From a virus: DNA of 37,829 nucleotides. The notes under the pieces were generated by a model that was not told the origin of the DNA, did not search any database, and saw only the letters and a list, made by a program, of their open reading frames with translations. This document shows positions 2,321 through 37,829 of this stretch, one piece after another. The DNA lies in IMG/VR virus record IMGVR_UViG_3300042731_007593, positions 1 to 37,829 of that record, one strand, 5' to 3'. A program made the position numbers and the translations under genes. Numbering within the stretch: the stretch's first letter is position 1; every line of letters begins with the position of its first letter.

Positions 2321-2759
2321 GCTTTGTCTCCAGGATAGGTTCTTGTAAGACTTCTGTAACAGTAACTTCAGTTCTTGCATATCTATGAGTGTAACATTTT
2401 ATGGCGCTTATTTTGAATATATACGCATCATCGGCATAAAGAAGACCGGAACAACAGTCAAGAATAAACTTTTGCAGGTTATCACAATCTGGTTTAGAAA
2501 TATGGTAGAGTCCTTTTTTTTTTCTGAGTGATTTTGTTTTGGGAAGGCTGAAATAGAATTTTATTTGAATTGCAAGAGGACCACAAAGAAGATGTTCTTT
2601 GAGTGAGGAATATTTCTCGGTGGCTCTTTTTATCAATATGCGGTAGTAGAGTTTATCTTTTTTGCACGGGTCATAGGTAACTCCTGCTTTTGTGTGTCGA
2701 TGTCTCTTTTGAGCAATTGGCTTCTCATTTAATATAAATGCTATTTCTCTTAGGCTCAT
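2268..2759 (-). CDS. rusA: RusA-family Holliday junction resolvase
   Basis: A 163-residue endonuclease of the RusA family, which cuts four-way DNA junctions as homodimers and helps phages resolve recombination or packaging branches. The family signature is clear: KPDCDNLQK at residues 89-97 with the acidic pair D91/D93, then LLYADDAYI with D110/D111; an N-terminal KPIAQKRHRH motif lies at 13-22. The length is a little above that of E. coli RusA (about 120 residues), with a C-terminal tail. The ribosome binding site GGAG precedes the ATG at 2759. The first 17 codons are duplicated exactly 1369 bases upstream, on the other side of the methyltransferase gene. Confidence 0.92.
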   Translation of the reverse strand: MSLREIAFILNEKPIAQKRHRHTKAGVTYDPCKKDKLYYRILIKRATEKYSSLKEHLLCGPLAIQIKFYFSLPKTKSLRKKKGLYHISKPDCDNLQKFILDCCSGLLYADDAYIFKISAIKCYTHRYARTEVTVTEVLQEPILETKHGTQQTFLPARTKGISD

Positions 2760-2771
2760 TTACTCTCCTTC
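2708..2771. repeat. 64-bp direct repeat, copy 1 (rusA start region)
   Basis: An exact 64-base match to 4077-4140. It covers the ribosome binding site and first 17 codons of intact rusA. The flanks diverge immediately on both sides (CATACG against CCTCGT after the repeat). The two copies bound the methyltransferase gene. Confidence 0.96.
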
Positions 2772-4055
2772 ATACGTAACAACCTTAAAACTACCTCCAG
2801 TTGGAATAGTTAATATCGTTTGTTTGTTCCATTTTCCTGATATAACTCGTTTTATTCGTTCAGCGGTCAATGACTTGCAAAAATAAGCGTTCTCAATGAG
2901 AATAAATTTACGATTAGCATCCTTGAGATTTAAATTGAGAACGGCATGAGCCGTTGTAGCTGATCCTCCAAATGCGTCAACAACTAGGCCATCTTTGGGG
3001 CAAAACATTTCAATAAGACGCTCAGTTAGCTTGAGAGGTTTAGGTGTATTAAATGGACAATTAGCCCCAAGAATCGATTTAATAAGTTTTTTGGCTGCGT
3101 CATTATGCCCCGAAACTTTGTGGGGGAAACTCAAATTTATATGTTCATCAGATTTCCATTTTTCATCAAGAATTTCATCTGAAGACCAATAAGTTCCAAT
3201 ATTTCTACCCTTGTTCCTTTTAACAACATCTTTTAAATAGGACTTAAGCCGGGGGACACCATGTCCTGATTTTCCAAAATTAAGAATGGGCCATGGTTTT
3301 AACAGTTTTTTTTCTAGTTCTTTTAAGCTGTATTTTCCATAAGTAACAAGATTTCCGCGTTGGTCTTCTTTATATTTAACTCCCCATTGTTCTAACATTT
3401 TTTTAATGTTTTTTTTTGATCTTCGCCAATATGCATTTTTGGGATAATGTATTTTTTTAGTAAATGGATTTTGAATACCATATCTATAAGAATCATTGCC
3501 CGAAGTTGCTAACAATGGTGTTGATTTCCATGGATTTTTATCTCCATCTGGACTATGATATCGAGCGTTCATCTTTTCAGTTCTTGGAATTACCCCACGA
3601 AAGGCAAATTTTTTATCCTTCGCATATACTAAAACATAATCAGTCGTAGATGGGATAGCATTTTTTTTATCATTTTTTGGGCTGTAATAGCATTCCCAAT
3701 TAACAATGCCAAGTCTATTGTTTTCACCAAATACCTCATCCATTAAAAGGCCAAGTCGAAATAATTCATGATAGCTAATGTGAACTGCTATTATCCCTGA
3801 TTCCTTAAGGAGTTTTTTCGCTAATTGCAATCTGACTTCCATGAAAGAAAGCCATTTAGAGTGCTCATCTTTTTTATTATCATAAAACCTGTCATTAAAA
3901 ATGAAATCATTTCCTGTGTTATAGGGTGGGTCCCAAACCATAAGATCAACAATACAATCTTGATCAAGCATACTCTTCATAACGTCTAAATTGTCACCAC
4001 AAATAAGCAAATTATCACCTTGTGACTTTATACTTTCTATTAATTTTTTCTTCAT
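2760..4055 (-). CDS. DNA methyltransferase, type III Mod-like (beta-class amino-methyltransferase)
   Basis: This S-adenosylmethionine-dependent enzyme is predicted to methylate an exocyclic amino group (N6-adenine or N4-cytosine). The target motif DPPY lies at residues 42-45 (WDPPYNTGNDF), while the cofactor-binding motif I (DAFGGSATT) comes late, near residue 360. This circular order is that of the beta class and of type III Mod subunits; RKFILIE and AERIKRVI after it are also typical. The chosen start is 4055 (431 residues, MKKKLIES). The frame is open to 4097, but those extra codons lie partly in the duplicated rusA sequence. No restriction subunit is next to it, so it is an orphan enzyme, probably protecting phage DNA. 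It sits between two copies of the rusA start, so it looks like a later insertion. Confidence 0.9.
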   Translation of the reverse strand: MKKKLIESIKSQGDNLLICGDNLDVMKSMLDQDCIVDLMVWDPPYNTGNDFIFNDRFYDNKKDEHSKWLSFMEVRLQLAKKLLKESGIIAVHISYHELFRLGLLMDEVFGENNRLGIVNWECYYSPKNDKKNAIPSTTDYVLVYAKDKKFAFRGVIPRTEKMNARYHSPDGDKNPWKSTPLLATSGNDSYRYGIQNPFTKKIHYPKNAYWRRSKKNIKKMLEQWGVKYKEDQRGNLVTYGKYSLKELEKKLLKPWPILNFGKSGHGVPRLKSYLKDVVKRNKGRNIGTYWSSDEILDEKWKSDEHINLSFPHKVSGHNDAAKKLIKSILGANCPFNTPKPLKLTERLIEMFCPKDGLVVDAFGGSATTAHAVLNLNLKDANRKFILIENAYFCKSLTAERIKRVISGKWNKQTILTIPTGGSFKVVTYEGE

Positions 4056-4128
4056 ACTTAGCTGACTTTTCCTTAGTTTGAGCAATTGGCTTCTCATTTA
4101 ATATAAATGCTATTTCTCTTAGGCTCAT
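4015..4128 (-). pseudogene. Truncated duplicate of the rusA 5' end
   Basis: The ATG at 4128 has the same ribosome binding site and first 17 residues as rusA (MSLREIAFILNEKPIAQ). After the 64-bp repeat ends, the frame runs into unrelated codons and stops with TGA at 4015-4017, inside the methyltransferase gene. The result is a 37-residue fragment with none of the catalytic aspartates. It may be translated, and could couple ribosomes to the methyltransferase start at 4055, whose own ribosome binding site is poorly spaced. It appears to be the scar of a recombination event that placed the methyltransferase here. Confidence 0.8.
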
Positions 4129-4140
4129 TTACTCTCCTTC
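4077..4140. repeat. 64-bp direct repeat, copy 2
   Basis: Identical over 64 bases to 2708-2771, offset by 1369 bases. The interval holds the methyltransferase gene. Recombination between the copies would delete the methyltransferase precisely and leave an intact rusA. Confidence 0.96.
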
Positions 4141-4164: not shown

Positions 4165-4296
4165 TCAGCGGCAGGAAAAAAGATTTGTAAAATAGGTAGC
4201 CACTGCTTCTTCGAGTCTGCAAAAAGATCTTTCATGTCGATGTCTTTTTTGTGGTATTGGTCGTTCGTAGATGGTAAATTGTACTTCTCGCAGCAT
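4165..4296 (-). pseudogene. Decayed second RusA-like N-terminal remnant
   Basis: A 43-codon frame beginning at 4296 after a GGAGAG ribosome binding site reads MLREVQFTIYERPIPQKRHR and then drifts off into unrelated residues before a TGA at 4165. The start is clearly homologous to the RusA N-terminus (LREIAF...KPIAQKRHRH), but it differs at many bases, unlike the exact repeat beside it. This suggests an older, diverged rusA gene stood here and was mostly lost when the present rusA/methyltransferase segment was acquired. It overlaps no other gene. Confidence 0.72.
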
Positions 4297-4312
4297 CTAC
4301 TCTCCTTTTCCT

Positions 4313-5166: not shown

Positions 5167-6204
5167 CTAGACTACACCTGGGGTTTGGCGTGTGCTAGAG
5201 AGCTCACTCGCACACGCTTTTTCCTTTTTTCGTTGAAAAAAGCGTTTTGCATCGTGAGGGGGAGTGTACATTACAGAGTTTTTGGTTATGGTTATTGTCC
5301 CTAGTATTATATTCTTAACTATAGTGTGACATGAGTTTATTACATATTGAAAACCTTTATCTGGAAGGGTTTCTAGTAGGTCTTGGATGATGTCTACAAA
5401 ATCATAAATCATTGGATGTATGATGTATGTGTTTACGTTCCAGGTTTTCTTACCTGATTTTATATTTATGAGTTTTAGGCCTGTTTCTTTTTCGAGTTTC
5501 TTTTGTTCTTGTAAGAATACTTTTAGTACTCGGTGTTCATGCCTTCTGGTTATTCCAGCGCTTTCGTATCCGATACGGGCAACAGATCTACGAGTATATT
5601 GTTTGGCTTGAGTGATAAGATAGCCTACGAGTTTTTCTGCCCCATTAGAATGCAATCTGAGTTTACATCTGTAGAAGAAATCTCTTATTGCCATTTTGGC
5701 GGCTTCGCTAGCAATATCAATTTGCATTCTCATTCTTTGAACTGCATCGTAATCTTGACATTGTGCTAGATTATAGTCTGTTTTTTCCCGGGTTTTTCCG
5801 GGTTTTTTAAGGATTTTGTTTGACTTTGGTGACCGGTTATGATAGTTTGTTTGTAACTTTATGTTGGTCATATATTGATCATACCATAAATCCTCAGTGT
5901 TACAACTGGGGATTTTGTGGTTTCTGGGGGTCTCTAAATTATATTCTGTTTTTTCCCAGGTTTCTTTGGGGTTTTTTGAACTTGGCTCTTGACGGCGAGC
6001 CTTACCTTTGTTAGATTCTGTTATGGTTTTCATTGTGGTAAATGTACCATACCAAAGATCCTGGGACTTGTCCTGGGTTTTTTTGGTTTCTGGGGTCTTC
6101 TTATAATTATATTCTTGGTTTTTGCTGGATTTTTCAGGTTTTTTTTGATTTATCCCTTGACACCGGGATCGGGTTTTGGTAGATTCTTCTTGTTGTTTCG
6201 TCAT
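5167..6204 (-). CDS. Repeat-bearing putative DNA-binding or replication initiator protein
   Basis: A 345-residue, strongly basic protein. Residues about 10-150 consist of three copies of a 56-residue repeat (marked by EYNYKK, EYNLET and DYNLAQ, and by DLWY at 49-52 and 105-108), low-complexity and rich in K, T, N and S. Residues about 150-290 form a compact domain whose ARIGYESAGITRRHEHRVLKVF segment looks like a helix-turn-helix/winged helix, followed by TWNVNTYIIHP. This suits a phage replication initiator or a transcription factor. It is transcribed divergently from 6291, with a possible promoter (TTGACT, 17 bases, TAGTGT) so close to the ATG that the message may be leaderless. The C-terminal codons contain hairpin II. 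Function is inferred, not recognised. Confidence 0.6.
   Translation of the reverse strand: MTKQQEESTKTRSRCQGINQKKPEKSSKNQEYNYKKTPETKKTQDKSQDLWYGTFTTMKTITESNKGKARRQEPSSKNPKETWEKTEYNLETPRNHKIPSCNTEDLWYDQYMTNIKLQTNYHNRSPKSNKILKKPGKTREKTDYNLAQCQDYDAVQRMRMQIDIASEAAKMAIRDFFYRCKLRLHSNGAEKLVGYLITQAKQYTRRSVARIGYESAGITRRHEHRVLKVFLQEQKKLEKETGLKLINIKSGKKTWNVNTYIIHPMIYDFVDIIQDLLETLPDKGFQYVINSCHTIVKNIILGTITITKNSVMYTPPHDAKRFFQRKKEKACASELSSTRQTPGVV
5214..5245. repeat. Hairpin II (ACGC-T5 / A6-GCGT)
   Basis: Arms ACGCTTTTT and AAAAAAGCGT flank CC-TTTTTTCGTT-G. It lies inside the last 15-20 codons of the gene at 5167-6204. It matches hairpin I except for stem bases that changed in pairs, so the structure is kept while the sequence is not. 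Confidence 0.75.
5755..6177. repeat. Three imperfect 168-bp in-gene repeats
   Basis: The coding region for residues about 10-150 of the putative initiator holds three units of 56 codons (roughly 6177-6010, 6009-5842, and a partial 5841-5755). Each contains a tract of TTTTTCC-type pyrimidines on the plus strand, and the first two carry a GGTTTCTGGGG word and a small dyad (for example AAATCC...GGATTT around 5888-5915). Lambda-type initiator genes carry iterons within themselves, so this may be an origin as well as a protein repeat; that is inference. Confidence 0.65.
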
Positions 6205-6211
6205 AGTAACG

Positions 6212-6240
6212 ACACTAAAAAAGTTTTAAGGAGTAGTCAA
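6212..6240 (-). promoter_or_regulatory. Possible promoter of the initiator-like gene
   Basis: Read on the minus strand: TTGACT (6240-6235), 17-base spacer, TAGTGT (6217-6212). The start codon at 6204 would lie at or just after the transcription start, so a leaderless message is possible. Confidence 0.4.
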
Positions 6241-6290
6241 GTTTTTTCTTGGCTGCTCCATTCTTTTTTAGTCAATATTGGAGAAAAAAA

Positions 6291-6716
6291 ATGATTCCTG
6301 AAATACTGGAAGACCTCTTTGAGACCATGTTTGAGAGACATGGTTACACCGTAAAACAAATTCAAGAAAAAAAAATATCCATAGACACCATTAGCTATAA
6401 CACGAGTTGCATTTCTGTTGCATGGAGCCCAGAAGATAAAGAAGCTCAATATATAGCGCTGCTTATATCAGAATTCATCAGAGAAAACGTTGAAACGCCT
6501 GCGGAAGTAAAAGTACTTATAAAAGAATTCAACGCTAAGAAGAAGAATTATCATAGATATACTATTCCTAAGGGTGAGCTTTATACTAATAAGAAGGATA
6601 TTCAAAAATTAAAAGATGATCGCCTCAATAAGTTAAAATATGGTATTGGAAAAGTAAAAGAAATGCTTAATGGCATCGAAGAAAGAGCAGAAGACGAAAA
6701 GAAAGATGATGAATAA
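6291..6716 (+). CDS. Hypothetical acidic/helical protein, 141 residues
   Basis: I do not recognise this protein. An upstream in-frame ATG exists at 6249, but the ATG at 6291 has TTGGAG seven to eight bases ahead, so 141 residues (MIPEILEDLFETMFERHGYT...) is preferred. The first half looks globular (residues 1-70). The second is highly charged and helical, ending in KMLN-like and EERAEDEKKDDE stretches. It heads a two-gene rightward operon diverging from the initiator-like gene, and its stop overlaps the next gene's start. An early regulatory or host-interaction role is plausible from position only. Confidence 0.62.
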   Translation: MIPEILEDLFETMFERHGYTVKQIQEKKISIDTISYNTSCISVAWSPEDKEAQYIALLISEFIRENVETPAEVKVLIKEFNAKKKNYHRYTIPKGELYTNKKDIQKLKDDRLNKLKYGIGKVKEMLNGIEERAEDEKKDDE

Positions 6717-6879
6717 AAATGAAGATCAACTCATACAAGTTCATCTAAGTGAAATAAGAAAGCTTAATAAAGAACTAGAATTAAATAAAAAAAAGCTTAA
6801 AGACCTTAAGCGGAAATATAGACTTGTAAAAGAGGTGATGCAAGCTCTTCGTATCACGATCAGTAACCAGCTCAGCTAA
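6706..6879 (+). CDS. Small coiled-coil protein, 57 residues
   Basis: The start is ATG at 6706 or 6709, overlapping the upstream stop (GATGATGAATAA), with GAAAAGAAAG as a purine-rich binding site. The product is one long amphipathic helix (QVHLSEIRKLNKELELNKKK, then LKDLKRKYRLVKEV). No domain is recognised. Translational coupling to the 141-residue protein suggests that the two work together. Transcription probably ends at the hairpin at 6980-7006. Confidence 0.55.
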   Translation: MMNKNEDQLIQVHLSEIRKLNKELELNKKKLKDLKRKYRLVKEVMQALRITISNQLS

Positions 6880-6979
6880 CGTTGCTATAGATGTGCTGAC
6901 AGCAGGAACTCTCTTCATAGAATTTGAATATTTGTTTTGGAAGTATCTTGTTTTCAACCATACATAATAAATTTATCCC

Positions 6980-7006
6980 CCCTTTTTTGACCATGAAGGG
7001 TTTTTT
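6980..7006 (+). terminator. Rho-independent terminator of the 6291-6879 operon
   Basis: CCCTT (6980-6984), an 11-base loop, AAGGG (6996-7000), then T6. The stem is short, but the U-run directly follows it. It lies just before the antiparallel tRNA copy. Confidence 0.6.
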
Positions 7007-7140
7007 ATAACGTGTCCCCACCCGGATTCGAACCGAGACAATTGCATCGAAAGTGCAATATTCTACCCTTAAATTACAGGGACGCACATCTGTTCTTTTT
7101 ATGTCTTTGGATTCATTGGCTGCATTTTTTGTTCCTGTTC
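7005..7140. repeat. Duplicated tRNA-portal-end block, copy 1 (127 bp exact core 7014-7140)
   Basis: Bases 7014-7140 are identical to 35962-36088. Similarity extends a few bases further (TTATAACGT), interrupted by an extra GT pair here (read AC on the tRNA strand). The block holds a tRNA-Glu gene and, upstream of it, the last 13 codons and stop of portal. Since portal is complete at the other site, this copy is the derived one. It then joins abruptly to unrelated sequence at 7141. Confidence 0.95.
7013..7083 (-). tRNA. tRNA-Glu (UUC), second copy with altered discriminator
   Basis: The cloverleaf is the same as that of the copy at 35961-36031: acceptor GTCCCTG/TGGGGAC, a weak D arm (ATT/AAT), anticodon arm TTGCA-CTTTCGA-TGCAA with anticodon TTC, and T arm CTCGG-TTCGAAT-CCGGG. 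After C72 the next base is A followed by CG, whereas the other copy has G73, the usual discriminator for bacterial tRNA-Glu. No CCA is encoded. The change in the discriminator suggests that this copy may be poorly charged or serve as a recombination site. Confidence 0.85.
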
Positions 7141-7143
7141 AAT

Positions 7144-7173
7144 TTGTATAAAAAGAAAATATCATAGTATACT
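7144..7173 (+). promoter_or_regulatory. Probable promoter for the gene at 7214
   Basis: TTGTAT (7144-7149), 18-base spacer, TATACT (7168-7173). The -10 box overlaps the first arm of the 15-bp inverted repeat. Confidence 0.5.
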
Positions 7174-7224
7174 GTACTCTTTTATTTAAACACAAAAAAA
7201 AGGAAGCAGTACTATGATATTTTC
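7155..7224. repeat. 15-bp perfect inverted repeat flanking promoter and start codon
   Basis: GAAAATATCATAGTA (7155-7169) and its exact complement TACTATGATATTTTC (7210-7224). With a two-base bulge the pairing extends through CTG/CAG to 18 pairs. The first arm covers the -10 region and the second covers the start codon at 7214. It could be a paired operator, or an RNA hairpin hiding the start codon in read-through transcripts. Confidence 0.85.
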
Positions 7225-7468
7225 AACTCAAGACAAGCTTAGAACATTAATCAAAAATTCTCAAGAGACAAAATCTGGAACAATTCTACTTTTAAATAGT
7301 TTTGAAATCTTTGACTTGCTAAAGAAAGATAAGTGTTTTGAGCAAGTTTTTCAAACAATTCTTATACTAGTTAATCAAGATAGACAGCTTTTAGTTGAAG
7401 CAAAAGAAGCTTTGCTTGAGTATTTGAATTCCTCTTACCTTTTTCATCCCCTAAATCAATATCTGTAA
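7214..7468 (+). CDS. Hypothetical protein, 84 residues
   Basis: I do not recognise this protein. It starts at ATG 7214 after AAAAAGGAAGCAG and is helical, with alternating charged and leucine-rich stretches (SFEIFDLLKKDK, FQTILILVNQ). The last 98 bases overlap, tail to tail, the minus-strand partner of the repressor. Its promoter and start codon are framed by the 15-bp inverted repeat, so its expression is probably tightly controlled. Position next to the XRE repressor suggests an immunity or lysogeny-related role, unproven. Confidence 0.55.
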   Translation: MIFSTQDKLRTLIKNSQETKSGTILLLNSFEIFDLLKKDKCFEQVFQTILILVNQDRQLLVEAKEALLEYLNSSYLFHPLNQYL

Positions 7469-7625
7469 TTAAGCGAAACTCACACATTGGATAAACAACA
7501 TAATCATAAATTTCTTGTACATTAACTATAATATCATCAAAAAATTTCCATTTTTTTTCAGCTATATATTTTATCAAACATTGATTAGCAATTACTTCAG
7601 GCATAAAACTATACAGCTTATCCAT
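7371..7625 (-). CDS. Hypothetical repressor-coupled protein, 84 residues
   Basis: The frame is open to 7661, but the ATG at 7625 has AAAGGGAG in front and overlaps the repressor stop by 8 bases, so MDKLYSFMPEVIANQ is the likely start. No HExxH metalloprotease motif of ImmA-type antirepressors is present, and no toxin signature is clear. The aromatic-rich core (KKWKFFDDIIVNVQEIYDYV) looks folded, but the last 30 residues lie in the region that also encodes the opposite gene and look less natural. It is probably co-translated with the repressor. Confidence 0.5.
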   Translation of the reverse strand: MDKLYSFMPEVIANQCLIKYIAEKKWKFFDDIIVNVQEIYDYVVYPMCEFRLITDIDLGDEKGKRNSNTQAKLLLLQLKAVYLD

Positions 7626-7926
7626 CTCCCTTTTTTCTCCGTTGTAATCGATATAATCCAACTGCTCGCTGATACTTTTTACTTAATCCATCTTCAAATT
7701 GTTGAACTTTTATCTCTTTTGCATCCTCAAGTAATTCTTGCTCTTTTATCCCAAAAACGTCTGCTATTTTGCAAATTAACTCAGGACTAGGAATTTCACC
7801 ATGCACTTCAATTTTAGTGACATAAGAAGGGGATAAATCATTTCCAAGTTTTTCAATGAACTGTTTTACAGTCCACCCTTTTCCCCGTCTATAAGCCTGA
7901 ATTTTTTCGCCAAATGTTTTTTTCAT
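7618..7926 (-). CDS. XRE-family (cI-like) transcriptional repressor
   Basis: A 102-residue protein with an N-terminal helix-turn-helix of the Xre/Cro-CI family at about residues 6-60 (FGEKIQAYRRGKGWTVKQFI, then LSPSYVTKIEVHGEIPSPEL). There is no C-terminal LexA-like peptidase, so it would not be SOS-cleaved. Such proteins hold early promoters off in lysogens. It has its own promoter (7948-7975) and a GGGAG ribosome binding site, and overlaps the next gene by 8 bases. The divergent switch at 9047-9121 is the most likely target, but dyads closer by (8072-8090) are also candidates. Confidence 0.83.
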   Translation of the reverse strand: MKKTFGEKIQAYRRGKGWTVKQFIEKLGNDLSPSYVTKIEVHGEIPSPELICKIADVFGIKEQELLEDAKEIKVQQFEDGLSKKYQRAVGLYRLQRRKKGDG

Positions 7927-7947
7927 AATTTATACTCCCAAAGATTG

Positions 7948-7975
7948 AATTTACTAAATTTGGTTAATTCGTCAA
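7948..7975 (-). promoter_or_regulatory. Promoter of the XRE repressor gene
   Basis: Minus strand: TTGACG (7975-7970), 16-base spacer, TAAATT (7953-7948), leader of about 15-20 bases, then GGGAG and ATG at 7926. Confidence 0.6.
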
Positions 7976-8232
7976 GACAAAATTTACTTTAAGGCAATTT
8001 CTGCGATTAAAAAATATATGTTTTAATTTTTTACCAAGCAATATCCTACCTGCAAGCACCTTTTTTATTGATTGATACTCATGTTATCAATGATTGACTT
8101 TATTTCAAAGGATTTAAAATTTTCAAAAGAATAAGTTATAAAATAGTCCACCAATGGAACACGACTTGAGAGTGTTTGAATTTTTTACTGGATGTTGGGG
8201 GTTTTATAATTGCGAACAGTTACCTAAGTTTT
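7976..8232. other. Non-coding interval upstream of the repressor, with a small dyad
   Basis: AT-rich with no supported gene; a 28-codon plus-strand frame from 8154 has no ribosome binding site. TTGATA (8072-8077) and TATCAA (8085-8090) form a dyad spaced by 7 bases, and weaker matching extends outward. It is a candidate repressor operator. It also contains the 3' untranslated region of the leftward trio ending at 8233; I see no clear terminator. Confidence 0.45.
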
Positions 8233-8592: not shown

Positions 8593-8821
8593 ATTCTTTC
8601 CTTGGTATTGCTTTTATTTTTTCTAACTTTTTTCTTAATTCATCCAGAAAGAAAGTATCTTCTGGAAAAAATTCATAAAGGGCACTGAGTACATCTTTAG
8701 CCTTTTTTTTTAAATAATTAGGTTCTAACGTCGCGATGATTTTTTCTACATGGCGATAATGATACGCACCTTTATATGTATCTTTGAGCGATTGTATTTG
8801 TCTTTCCTCAATAAGCGTCAT
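8576..8821 (-). CDS. Hypothetical protein, 81 residues
   Basis: I do not recognise this protein. It starts at ATG 8821, sharing an ATGA overlap with the stop of the MerR-like gene. It is helical, with LEPNYLKKKAKDVLSALYEF in the middle. Its LEPNYLKKKAK part is reminiscent of LEPRYTAW in the small terminase and EPRYVAWL in the following protein, but this is too short to claim kinship. It is a middle member of the leftward regulatory operon. Confidence 0.6.
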   Translation of the reverse strand: MTLIEERQIQSLKDTYKGAYHYRHVEKIIATLEPNYLKKKAKDVLSALYEFFPEDTFFLDELRKKLEKIKAIPRKECEKHN

Positions 8822-9003
8822 CTAGTTCCTTTATTTTCTTTGTTCTTAAACTTTTCTAGTTGATCTTGTCTATATAATCTATAGCCGGTTTTTTTCAAGA
8901 TACCCACCGGTAATAACTTTCTTGTGGTTTCCCATTTTCTTAATGTCTGTTGTGAAATACCAAGAAGCTTAGCAGCTTCTCCTATAAGCATATATTCTTT
9001 CAT
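8818..9003 (-). CDS. MerR/excisionase-like helix-turn-helix protein, 61 residues
   Basis: The whole protein is a winged-helix of the MerR/HTH_17 type: IGEAAKLLGISQQTLRKWE (residues 7-25), then a wing TGYRLYRQDQLEKF. Proteins of this size act as excisionase-like recombination directionality factors or as small phage regulators. No integrase is present to partner it, so a regulatory role at the adjacent switch is equally likely. It is the first gene of the leftward operon, with a near-consensus promoter at 9047-9074 and GAAAGGATA-like sites in the leader. Confidence 0.82.
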   Translation of the reverse strand: MKEYMLIGEAAKLLGISQQTLRKWETTRKLLPVGILKKTGYRLYRQDQLEKFKNKENKGTR

Positions 9004-11823: not shown

Positions 11824-12537
11824 TTAAATATCTTTGTGTGCCTTTCTTTCAGTTCGTATTCCTGTGATGGTTTTTTGGAATCCATCAAGGGGGATATCAG
11901 CAAGATTACGAATTTTAAAATGTCGCAATATTTTCTCTTTATAGTGTGGCACATATTGTAGTTCATGTTCAATCTTTTTAAGGTCATCGCGTGTTATTGT
12001 TTCCATACTTGTATTTTTATGGCCTTCTCCATGCACACCAATATTCTTATAAGCTTCTTTTAATGCTTCATATCCATTATCATCAAATTGGTCATTGGCA
12101 ATTGTAATATTAAGGAGCGCCATCACTTGTGACTTTTTTAATTCATTTAATTCAGAGACATAAATATCTATATTATTTTGTGTTGGTAAAAATCGTTCAA
12201 TGGTTTGTATCCATTGGCCACTATTATGCCATATTCTTGTTTGAAGAAACGTTTTGCCGCTATTAGGGGCCAGTGTTCGTTGGGTAATAGAAATGCCGTG
12301 CTTGCCTAAAATTGGACGCATTTCACGCATAATATTATCCAGGTCAGTATATGCATTATTCATGTACGTGTCTTTGCGATTAAGAAGTATGAGGGGATAT
12401 TCACATTGAGCTTTAGCAAGAGCGGTATTTATTTTATCTGTTTCTTTTGATTCATGTATGTGAAAAGAAGCTTGAGGATCAATGAGCTCAGTAAGTTCTT
12501 CAAGTTTTGCATAGACATCTTCTAAGGTAATCTTCAT
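11824..12537 (-). CDS. erf: ERF-family single-strand annealing protein
   Basis: A 237-residue protein with the ERF superfamily signature YTDLDNIMREMRPILGKHGI followed by SITQRT...GKTFLQTRIWHNSGQWIQT (about residues 62-110). P22 Erf anneals complementary single strands and circularises terminally redundant phage DNA, which fits a genome that closes into a circle. The start at 12537 has AAGGATGAGAAATA. It is unusual that a recombination gene lies in the tail end of the late block rather than in the early region. A hairpin lies just upstream at 12561-12609. Confidence 0.88.
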   Translation of the reverse strand: MKITLEDVYAKLEELTELIDPQASFHIHESKETDKINTALAKAQCEYPLILLNRKDTYMNNAYTDLDNIMREMRPILGKHGISITQRTLAPNSGKTFLQTRIWHNSGQWIQTIERFLPTQNNIDIYVSELNELKKSQVMALLNITIANDQFDDNGYEALKEAYKNIGVHGEGHKNTSMETITRDDLKKIEHELQYVPHYKEKILRHFKIRNLADIPLDGFQKTITGIRTERKAHKDI

Positions 12538-13785: not shown

Positions 13786-14103
13786 TTATTTTTGTTTTGT
13801 ACGGTTTTTTTTATATATAGTATACCCAATAGCCTTTATAACATTTCCAAGACTTTCATAATCGTTGTAGGAAAATGACATATCTTTATCTTGTAAACGC
13901 TTTAAGATACTTTCAAGGTCATCTCTTAAGTCTGCAACCGTTGGCTCCGGTTTTTCAAGTTTTTGTCCATCATCAAACATTGTTACCCAAAATGTAGTAT
14001 AACTCAAATCAAATTCTTCTTTCTGAAGACACAATGTTATCTCAGTCAAAAAGAGATTAAGGATAGTTTCTAGTTCTTTTCTGGTTATCTTCATAAAAAT
14101 CAT
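13786..14103 (-). CDS. Hypothetical protein, 105 residues
   Basis: I do not recognise this protein. The ATG at 14103 overlaps the TAA of the Hint gene (TAATG), so translation is coupled; a second ATG at 14094 is also possible. It is soluble, acidic in the centre (VADLRDDLESILKRLQDKDM) and has no motif. Its tight coupling to the exported Hint protein makes it a candidate partner or chaperone, by position only. Confidence 0.6.
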   Translation of the reverse strand: MIFMKITRKELETILNLFLTEITLCLQKEEFDLSYTTFWVTMFDDGQKLEKPEPTVADLRDDLESILKRLQDKDMSFSYNDYESLGNVIKAIGYTIYKKNRTKQK

Positions 14104-15278
14104 TAGAGCGTTTTATTGAGATATTCAAGTGCATTTTGTATTTCTTCACACTCGTTAGTAAAGTTATTAATTTCTTTTATCAGATGGTTTACGCGGGTAT
14201 TAATAATGGTTACTCGTTGTTCTTCAGATGCATTGGTTAAAAGACCTCGATCATCATATTTGTCTGGGTTCTCTATGTATTTTTTAAGTTTATCAACGTG
14301 TTCACTTAATCTCTTGAATGATGATTTATGTCCTTTACGTAATTGCCTACTATTTCTATGACTGTATTTGTAGTTGATTTCTTGTAGTTTACGTTCTTCA
14401 TCTTTTGGATCGGGGTCTTTTCCACCAGATGGTTTTTGTGCATCTTTTATTTTAGCCATTCTATCATCTATTTTTTTAAGTTTTTCAACGATATCTTGTG
14501 TATTTCGTACTAATGTAGGTGGTGAGGAAATTTCTGGATATGCTTCTTTTATTACTCTTCGCAGTTCTTTCTTGCGTCTGCGATGATGAAAAAAACTCGT
14601 GATGCCATGATATGCTTTTTTGGTTGCCAATCCTATTCCTCGTCCTATAGCATAACAATGAACAGCCACAACCGCTGGTGCAGTAAAGGTCCATAAAAAA
14701 CCAAGAATGGTTGGAATAGTAGTTGAGGATATTAAAGAAATCTTAACCGGCAAGCTCGCAAGATATAAACTCATCAATGTGACGGGTTCATTGTGAATAA
14801 GAAGTGATTCTCCACTTGAATCAGCAATATATAAAACAGGACACGCTTCAAGTGTAAAATTATAAATGTCCACCGGTACCAACAAGGTGAGATATGCTAT
14901 TTCTTTTAAGCGAACTTCTCGTCCTTGCAAGGTGGTTAAAGTATCACATCGATTTAAGTACTTTGCTTTTATCCATTTTAGTCGATTAAAAGAAAAAAAA
15001 CGTTCCTCAGGGTCAACTATTAATTGGCCATGTTCTGTTCTTATAAATACAATTCTGTTTGTCTGATGCTTTTCTATATTTTGAATTTTAATAGAAATAG
15101 ATTTGATGTTCCCGTTTACATCGATTGATGAAAGAACTGAGTCGCCTACTTTAAAATTTTCTGCTTTTTTTTTGTTAAAGGCAGAGCAGGGATGCTTAAT
15201 AAAAACAGGGGTTTTTCCAATGATACCTGCATCTACGGATGAGACACTTAAAAGTAAAAATAATATTATTTTTTTCAT
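14103..15278 (-). CDS. Exported Hint (hedgehog/intein)-fold membrane protein, 391 residues
   Basis: A signal peptide (MKKIILFLLLSVSSVDA) is followed by a Hint-type domain at about residues 28-163. It has Cys31 (HPCSAF), FKVGDSVLSS, a block-B-like LIVDPEERFF in place of TxxH, WIKAKYLNRCDTL, VDIYNFTLE and a closing LLIHN (H162-N163). One or two hydrophobic segments follow (about 165-215), then basic residues and a long helical coiled-coil region to the end. Hint domains cleave or splice proteins or release polymorphic toxins; here the block B Thr/His appear changed, so catalysis may be reduced. The order Hint, membrane helix, coiled coil suggests a processed envelope protein. It has an AAAGGA ribosome site and a 15-bp hairpin in its leader. 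Confidence 0.72.
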   Translation of the reverse strand: MKKIILFLLLSVSSVDAGIIGKTPVFIKHPCSAFNKKKAENFKVGDSVLSSIDVNGNIKSISIKIQNIEKHQTNRIVFIRTEHGQLIVDPEERFFSFNRLKWIKAKYLNRCDTLTTLQGREVRLKEIAYLTLLVPVDIYNFTLEACPVLYIADSSGESLLIHNEPVTLMSLYLASLPVKISLISSTTIPTILGFLWTFTAPAVVAVHCYAIGRGIGLATKKAYHGITSFFHHRRRKKELRRVIKEAYPEISSPPTLVRNTQDIVEKLKKIDDRMAKIKDAQKPSGGKDPDPKDEERKLQEINYKYSHRNSRQLRKGHKSSFKRLSEHVDKLKKYIENPDKYDDRGLLTNASEEQRVTIINTRVNHLIKEINNFTNECEEIQNALEYLNKTL

Positions 15279-35954: not shown

Positions 35955-36088
35955 TTATAACGTCCCCACCCGGATTCGAACCGAGACAATTGCATCGAAA
36001 GTGCAATATTCTACCCTTAAATTACAGGGACGCACATCTGTTCTTTTTATGTCTTTGGATTCATTGGCTGCATTTTTTGTTCCTGTTC
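35955..36088. repeat. Duplicated tRNA-portal-end block, copy 2 (127 bp exact core 35962-36088)
   Basis: Identical over 127 bases to 7014-7140. Here the block lies at its natural place: the last 13 codons of portal, then the tRNA gene, then the ribosome site of the next gene. This marks the copy as the source. Confidence 0.95.
35961..36031 (-). tRNA. tRNA-Glu (UUC)
   Basis: 71 bases, all arms present: acceptor GTCCCTG/TGGGGAC with G73, D arm with GGGTAG loop, anticodon arm TTGCA-CTTTCGA-TGCAA (anticodon TTC), T arm CTCGG-TTCGAAT-CCGGG. G73 and the U1-like acceptor resemble bacterial tRNA-Glu. No CCA encoded. It sits between portal and the 152-residue gene on the same strand, so it is processed from the late transcript. 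It could boost GAA decoding late in infection. Confidence 0.9.
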
Positions 36089-37829
36089 GGTTGCTTTAAA
36101 ATCATTTGCTAAGGTAATTAACTTTTCAAGGTGTGCTAAATCCATTGAAAAAAGTTCTTTAATAGCCTTAATCTTATCTAATGTTGCCTGCTCATCGTCT
36201 TTATTTGCTTCTGCAAGATTTGCTAATGCTCGTGTTTGTTGTTCTCCTATTTTTGATTCACGTTCAGCTGCTAATGACAAATCTGCCTGCGCACGTGCTT
36301 GGACAAGAGCAGCTTCAGCTTGTTGCAATTCCTGTGTTATTTGTGTTTCTTGTTGTTGCGTCTGTGCTTGTTCTTGAGCAAGATTATTCATATATTCAGT
36401 AATCTCATTTTTATTCTGTAATGTCGATAGTTGAATAACAAGTTCATCTGGAATTTGTACACCAGCTTGGCGCATAGCCATGACCTGTGCAAATTGATTC
36501 TGTTTCTGCGTAGTTGTATTAACTCCTTCTTCAATAGCCGCATCATAATCAGCAAACGATCTATTATAAAATTCTATCGTTGGCTCTTCATTTGTAATAC
36601 GCATTACCTTTTCTGGTAAATAATTTTTTTGGATAGTCTTTATCTGTAAGCGTCCAACCTGTTTTTGAGAACGATCAAGAAAATCTAAGAGCGGCTTAAT
36701 AATTGTTTGACCTGATGTCTGACGCAACATCGATAATATACCAGCCATCGTATCATTTTCAGTTGACCCAAAGAGTTCTTCATTTCCTCCATCATTTTCC
36801 ATCAGATCTTTTGCAGACTGTTCACGAATCAGCGGAATAGACGTAGGAATATCCATAGGATTTATAAATTGAATATCTTGTGGAAAACCACTTTTTTTAA
36901 GAGCAAGTCCATTAGAAAGATCACGATTCTCTATAAGTTTTGGATTTACCAATGAGGTAGGCTTATAAATAACAATTGGATTAACCCGTGACTGCACATA
37001 TTCCACTTCTAATGATGTCATAAGATTATAAAGAAACTGCAAATCACGCATTCCACGAGGAAGACCTTGAAATCGTAGGTACATATCAGTCATAGAGGGA
37101 CTTTGTTGACCAAAAAATGGAACAAATGGAAATTCATCAATTCCTAATGGATTCTCTCCATCGTACATAACAATACCATTCACCAAAATACACAGCTTTA
37201 CCGTAGGAATCTTTTCTTTGTTGTGAATTATAGAACGATTTTGCTTAAGAAAATATGAAAGGACGTCTTTTTCTTTTCCAAAATATTCACGTTTTTTATT
37301 AAGAACCGTATCAATAAGCATATCTGCAGTTCGATAATCACGATAATAATACTCATCATAAGATAGATATTTATCTTTTGCATCAAACGTAGGCGCTAAA
37401 TACGGAAAGACATCATCATAAGGTCCACTATTATTTGATATATATTCTATTTTATCTGATTGGTCTGGTAATAACGCTTTACATGCATTGGGGGTAAGAT
37501 ATGACCGCTTCCAAATAGTTGAACAATCAGATAAATCAGGTTTTCTGAATGTTGAATCAATAAAAAATGAATTATAAGGACACATATCTACTTTTAAACT
37601 ACCTGATTCCGGGTCATCGGCATAATCATTCCACATTTGCAATAATGTTAAACCCGTAATAACTGCCATCTGAAACGTATCAGATATAGTTTCTAAAACA
37701 GCTCCATTCGTATTCATATTATAAATAATTTTTGATAGTTGATCAGCAGTCTTTTGATCAGAGCCTTCGACGGGTATTACAATGGTTGATTTACGATTTC
37801 TTCGTTGAATACCAGAGACTAATGAAGTA
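36047..37829 (-). CDS. Portal protein, main and C-terminal part
   Basis: Continuation of the gene that starts at 230; the frame is open from base 37829 to the TAA at 36047. Together it makes about 670 residues, near P22 gp1 (725). Key stretches are RTSLVSGIQRRNRKSTIVIP, then DPESGSLKVDMCPYNSFFID, RGMRDLQFLYNLMTSLEVEY and a C-terminal Gln/Glu/Ala-rich helix (EQAQTQQQETQITQELQQAE). The last codons (EQEQKMQPMNPKT) lie in the duplicated block also present at 7.1 kb. An internal ATG at 37717 is not the real start. Confidence 0.92.
   Translation of the reverse strand, partial: TSLVSGIQRRNRKSTIVIPVEGSDQKTADQLSKIIYNMNTNGAVLETISDTFQMAVITGLTLLQMWNDYADDPESGSLKVDMCPYNSFFIDSTFRKPDLSDCSTIWKRSYLTPNACKALLPDQSDKIEYISNNSGPYDDVFPYLAPTFDAKDKYLSYDEYYYRDYRTADMLIDTVLNKKREYFGKEKDVLSYFLKQNRSIIHNKEKIPTVKLCILVNGIVMYDGENPLGIDEFPFVPFFGQQSPSMTDMYLRFQGLPRGMRDLQFLYNLMTSLEVEYVQSRVNPIVIYKPTSLVNPKLIENRDLSNGLALKKSGFPQDIQFINPMDIPTSIPLIREQSAKDLMENDGGNEELFGSTENDTMAGILSMLRQTSGQTIIKPLLDFLDRSQKQVGRLQIKTIQKNYLPEKVMRITNEEPTIEFYNRSFADYDAAIEEGVNTTTQKQNQFAQVMAMRQAGVQIPDELVIQLSTLQNKNEITEYMNNLAQEQAQTQQQETQITQELQQAEAALVQARAQADLSLAAERESKIGEQQTRALANLAEANKDDEQATLDKIKAIKELFSMDLAHLEKLITLANDFKATEQEQKMQPMNPKT

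Follow-up and report, generated by a model that had tools for sequence, protein, structure and literature searches.

This locus raises the question of why one viral genome should carry the end of its portal gene and an adjoining tRNA-Glu gene twice, about 29 kb apart, and whether the pair is an attachment site, a recombination scar or a product of assembly. Throughout, the window is the whole 37,829-nt stretch of DNA analysed here. The original prediction described 127 identical bases at 7014-7140 and 35962-36088 in the same orientation, a block holding the last portal codons and a whole tRNA-Glu, and both statements were confirmed. The block is an exact direct repeat of 127 bp, whereas the longest exact direct repeats in shuffled windows (n = 10) were 14-16 bp, and its contents are established by the end of the portal open reading frame (ORF), ARAGORN and Rfam. 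In an alignment of the two copies, the left edge of the block is followed by a 2-bp indel and then by seven matching bases (TTATAAC), a match with a chance probability of about 8 in 10,000. With this extension, the full duplicated piece is approximately 134 bp long, spanning 7005-7140 (copy A) and 35955-36088 (copy B).

35955-36088, minus strand: copy B, the source; last portal codons, a short spacer, tRNA-Glu(UUC) and GTTATAA, which runs into the ribosome-binding site of the gene that follows (gene order kept in the relative G002, introduced below).
7005-7140, minus strand: copy A, derived; portal-tail fragment and tRNA-Glu, with 127 identical bp and, past the 2-bp indel, a further 7 matching bases (alignment).
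35960-36032, minus strand: tRNA-Glu, anticodon TTC, G at position 73 (ARAGORN; Rfam RF00005, 57.7 bits).
7012-7083, minus strand: tRNA-Glu, anticodon TTC, A at position 73 (ARAGORN; Rfam RF00005, 59.1 bits).
36047-37829, minus strand: 3' part of a P22-like portal gene, with the 5' part at 230-1 and the last codons inside the repeat (Pfam P22_portal, 1.3e-51; 49% identity to the relative over its length).

Both tRNA genes have a tRNA fold and a recognised anticodon according to ARAGORN and Rfam. The only difference between the copies within the duplicated piece is the 2 bp past the acceptor end of the tRNA, which read GT on the plus strand and AC on the tRNA strand. Because these bases lie directly behind the acceptor end, position 73 is A in the 7-kb gene and G in the 36-kb gene, in agreement with the proposed change of discriminator from G to A through an AC insertion. 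The indel also bears on the origin of the repeat: a pure assembler product was considered and rejected, since homology continues on either side of the indel that distinguishes the copies, so the repeat itself is no assembly artefact.

The portal gene indicates which copy came first. Its ORF terminates inside copy B, and copy A contains only its last codons. The encoded protein aligns over almost its full length with the portal of the closest relative found, G002 (IMG/VR record 3300009494_000409, 32,386 bp); the match is weak at the tail, and the tail contributed by the repeat is in frame. Gene order in G002 matches that of the window, with RusA, small terminase, large terminase, portal, the next gene, scaffold, capsid and tail in succession at 28-70% protein identity, the small terminase and scaffold being named by position. 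No tRNA was found in the 32,386 bp of G002. Because the gene order around the 36-kb site is conserved in G002 and G002 lacks the tRNA, copy B is the original and copy A the derived copy, as had been proposed from the portal fragment. The 36-kb context is the inherited one, with the tRNA as an addition behind the portal gene and the 7-kb copy as a derived duplication. As a separate observation, the G002 capsid gene (5966-8183) is interrupted after about residue 145 by approximately 1.25 kb, in which an ORF continues into the remaining capsid sequence; the interruption had no Rfam or Pfam match and is possibly an intron or other insertion.

Terminase, P22-like portal and major head protein genes follow in order, which identifies the window as a tailed phage with a P22-like portal head module. 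The terminase relatives are distant (28-45% identity), and although many are found in Alphaproteobacteria, they do not fix the host. The portal frame continues from position 37829 to position 1, so the window can be read as a circle. At this join, the portal is one codon short of its nearest relative (RR-TS compared with RRITS), and a few bases may be absent there. Because of this codon, the circle, likely in itself, is perhaps not base-perfect.

A search with the tRNA pattern returned a second IMG/VR record, IMGVR_UViG_3300034989_000049, which is identical to window positions 7014-36088 over 29,075 of 29,075 bases, with no mismatch; a looser tRNA pattern matched only this record among the viral contigs. 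The record has the 127-bp direct repeat at its ends, a length equal to an assembler k-mer length, and it lacks the portal, terminase and rusA genes. Contigs that metaSPAdes breaks at repeats end in overlaps of the maximum k, with values up to 127 in use (COBRA paper, PMC10914622), and the lengths of end repeats in metagenome contigs are concentrated at the k values of assemblers (CheckV paper, PMC8116208). De Bruijn graphs of the window circle were built at common values of k. At k = 127, the graph consists of exactly two unitigs, 7014-36088 (29,075 bp) and 35962-7140 (9,008 bp), and the ends of the record coincide with its branching node. The loop measures 29,019 bp at k = 99 and 29,059 bp at k = 119, and the circle is unbroken at k = 141. 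Since the exact match is 127 bp long, both copies fall on a single shared node when an assembler uses k = 127, and the circle is cut into pieces of 29,075 and 9,008 bp.

The original prediction also stated that exchange between the copies would split the circle into rings of 29 kb and 8.9 kb, and these sizes are arithmetically right. The tRNA copies could be real recombination sites at which homologous exchange regularly resolves the two rings, one of them deposited as the 29,075-bp record. In favour of this, the record matches the predicted ring exactly in sequence, with closure at the repeat; a 127-bp identical stretch should suffice for homologous exchange, and the phage has a gene for an Erf-like annealing protein. 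Against this, assembly would open a lone ring at a random position, and the record is cut exactly at the graph node; the other arm was therefore most likely attached to the same node in that sample. The 29-kb ring would also be without portal, terminase and rusA and so could not package itself. We consider regular resolution into rings very improbable. A population in which part of the genomes occur as separate 29-kb and 8.9-kb rings, parting and rejoining by exchange at the duplicated tRNA genes, is likewise very improbable; if true, it would part the packaging genes from the remaining structural genes. The 8.9-kb partner arm was not seen among the viral contigs, where a terminase scan gave distant relatives only, although near-identical records were perhaps omitted by that scan.

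The 29,075-bp record is thus most likely a breakpoint loop from a presumed assembly at k = 127 and would represent no separate virus. The suggestion of an assembly artefact, which fails for the repeat, is in this way most likely correct for the 29-kb ring. No paper naming sample 3300034989 or the assembly settings of the record was found in the literature. That the exact repeat has the length of a standard k is a coincidence that we roughly guess at one in a hundred and cannot fully explain; the assembler might have influenced the sequence of the window itself.

The reading that we prefer as a whole, at a probability of roughly 0.8, is one genome of approximately 37.8 kb carrying a recent duplication of approximately 134 bp as a scar, with the 29-kb record as an assembly loop. 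The genome would be a single circle or a circularly permuted molecule. Recombination would have copied the portal end and the tRNA-Glu gene behind it from copy B into the intergenic control region, leaving copy A as a scar and possibly a spare tRNA gene, and a k = 127 assembler would split the circle at the shared node to give the 29,075-bp loop found in IMG/VR. Of the origins first offered for the repeat, a recombination scar is thus supported for the 7-kb copy, derived as it is from the 36-kb copy. Copy A was probably produced by recombination and probably has little function.

The surroundings of copy A were inspected for signs of use.

6978-7012, plus strand: terminator-like hairpin with a T tract, immediately to the left of copy A (fold -6.4 kcal/mol, z -1.6; weak).
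7155-7225, plus strand: strong hairpin just right of copy A, over the start codon of an 84-aa ORF at 7214-7468 (fold of 7150-7235: -24.8 kcal/mol, z -7.9).

The left hairpin was not listed by a terminator scan; the right one could hide the start of the 84-aa ORF in read-through transcripts. If copy A had been selected as a second tRNA-Glu gene, it would be expressed early from the control region, and copy B with the late structural transcripts. Both tRNAs look intact, with good scores, 5.5% of the codons in twelve phage genes are GAA, and a weak promoter-like match lies on the correct strand at 7190-7161. Such matches are about as frequent in shuffled sequence (13.3, sd 3.7) as in the window (17), however, and copy A carries a useless portal fragment, is found in no relative and has a changed position 73. 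Selection for a second gene is accordingly hard to credit, and a scar of little function is the better account of copy A.

tRNA genes are common phage attachment sites, and the original prediction had raised the option of an att-like core. Copy A, or the pair, would then be a tRNA-derived core beside the repressor region, for integration into a host tRNA-Glu gene. The common use of tRNA genes for this purpose speaks for the idea, as does the position of copy A near genes for an HTH repressor (7618-7926) and for an excisionase-like or MerR-like protein (8818-9003). Three results speak against it. Neither a tyrosine recombinase (PF00589) nor a serine recombinase (PF00239) was matched in six frames of the window, in a search for which control genomes were positive. 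An exact 60-base tRNA pattern was absent from 84,980 species genomes, and searches of 385 genomes (the class to which one terminase-relative genome belongs) and of plasmids gave no significant match to the tRNA, although as host searches these are weak. Finally, the identity between the copies includes portal codons, which would not be expected in a host attB. Comparison of the tRNA with phages returned nothing but short matches, most of them to tRNA-Arg from Streptomyces phages, and no source. The att-like core is therefore unsupported, and we regard integration at this tRNA as highly unlikely.

The preferred reading, a recombination scar, is in keeping with other features of the genome. It encodes the Erf-like annealing protein (11824-12537) and a RusA-like resolvase (rusA, 2268-2759), and it contains a second exact direct repeat, of 64 bp, which flanks a DNA methyltransferase gene (2760-4097).

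2708-2771, minus strand: second repeat, copy 1; methyltransferase end, ribosome-binding site and rusA start (exact repeat).
4077-4140, minus strand: second repeat, copy 2; rusA-start fragment, now the methyltransferase start region (exact repeat).

The methyltransferase region has the look of a gene acquired at the start of rusA, and the 64-bp repeat suggests the same kind of recombination scar as the tRNA repeat. Within the same interval (2708-4140), both the first and the last codons of the methyltransferase gene come from the 64-bp repeat. A third, diverged rusA-like 5' fragment (MLREVQFTIYERPIPQKRHRH...) lies upstream of the methyltransferase at 4230-4297, making a third rusA start within 1.6 kb. 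Given the 64-bp duplication and this third start, repeated recombination at gene boundaries is likely in this genome, and the tRNA piece fits such a history; copy A may have been made via the Erf pathway. No relatives of the methyltransferase or of a 345-aa ORF were found among the viral contigs. Elsewhere in the window, a 391-aa protein (14103-15278) begins with a signal-like segment and matches Pretoxin HINT weakly, below the family cut-off.

Three known systems can be set beside this locus. It shares with tRNA-derived phage attachment sites the involvement of a tRNA gene and the position of one copy near regulatory genes, but here two whole tRNA copies lie in one phage, portal codons are shared between them and no integrase was found. 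Scars of recombination and gained genes, known from tailed-phage mosaicism, offer a second comparison: here too, small pieces are duplicated at gene boundaries in a genome with annealing protein and resolvase genes, and a small tRNA-bearing duplication of this kind is ordinary phage biology. The difference is that the donor is the phage's own portal-tRNA junction and that no inserted gene accompanies copy A.

The 29,075-bp record resembles the de Bruijn contig breakpoints at repeats described previously (PMC10914622; PMC8116208), in that it starts and ends on the shared k = 127 node and would pass as closed under a rule requiring a direct terminal repeat of at least 20 bp. This publicly deposited record would thus pass an end-repeat completeness test, and it appears to be without portal and terminase because of a repeat of length k. 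Similar records could be screened for by three signs: the end repeat has length k, the ends recur within longer records, and packaging genes are absent. What sets the present case apart from those breakpoints is that a single phage genuinely carries this k-length, tRNA-bearing duplication, which gives the false loop the look of a biological ring.
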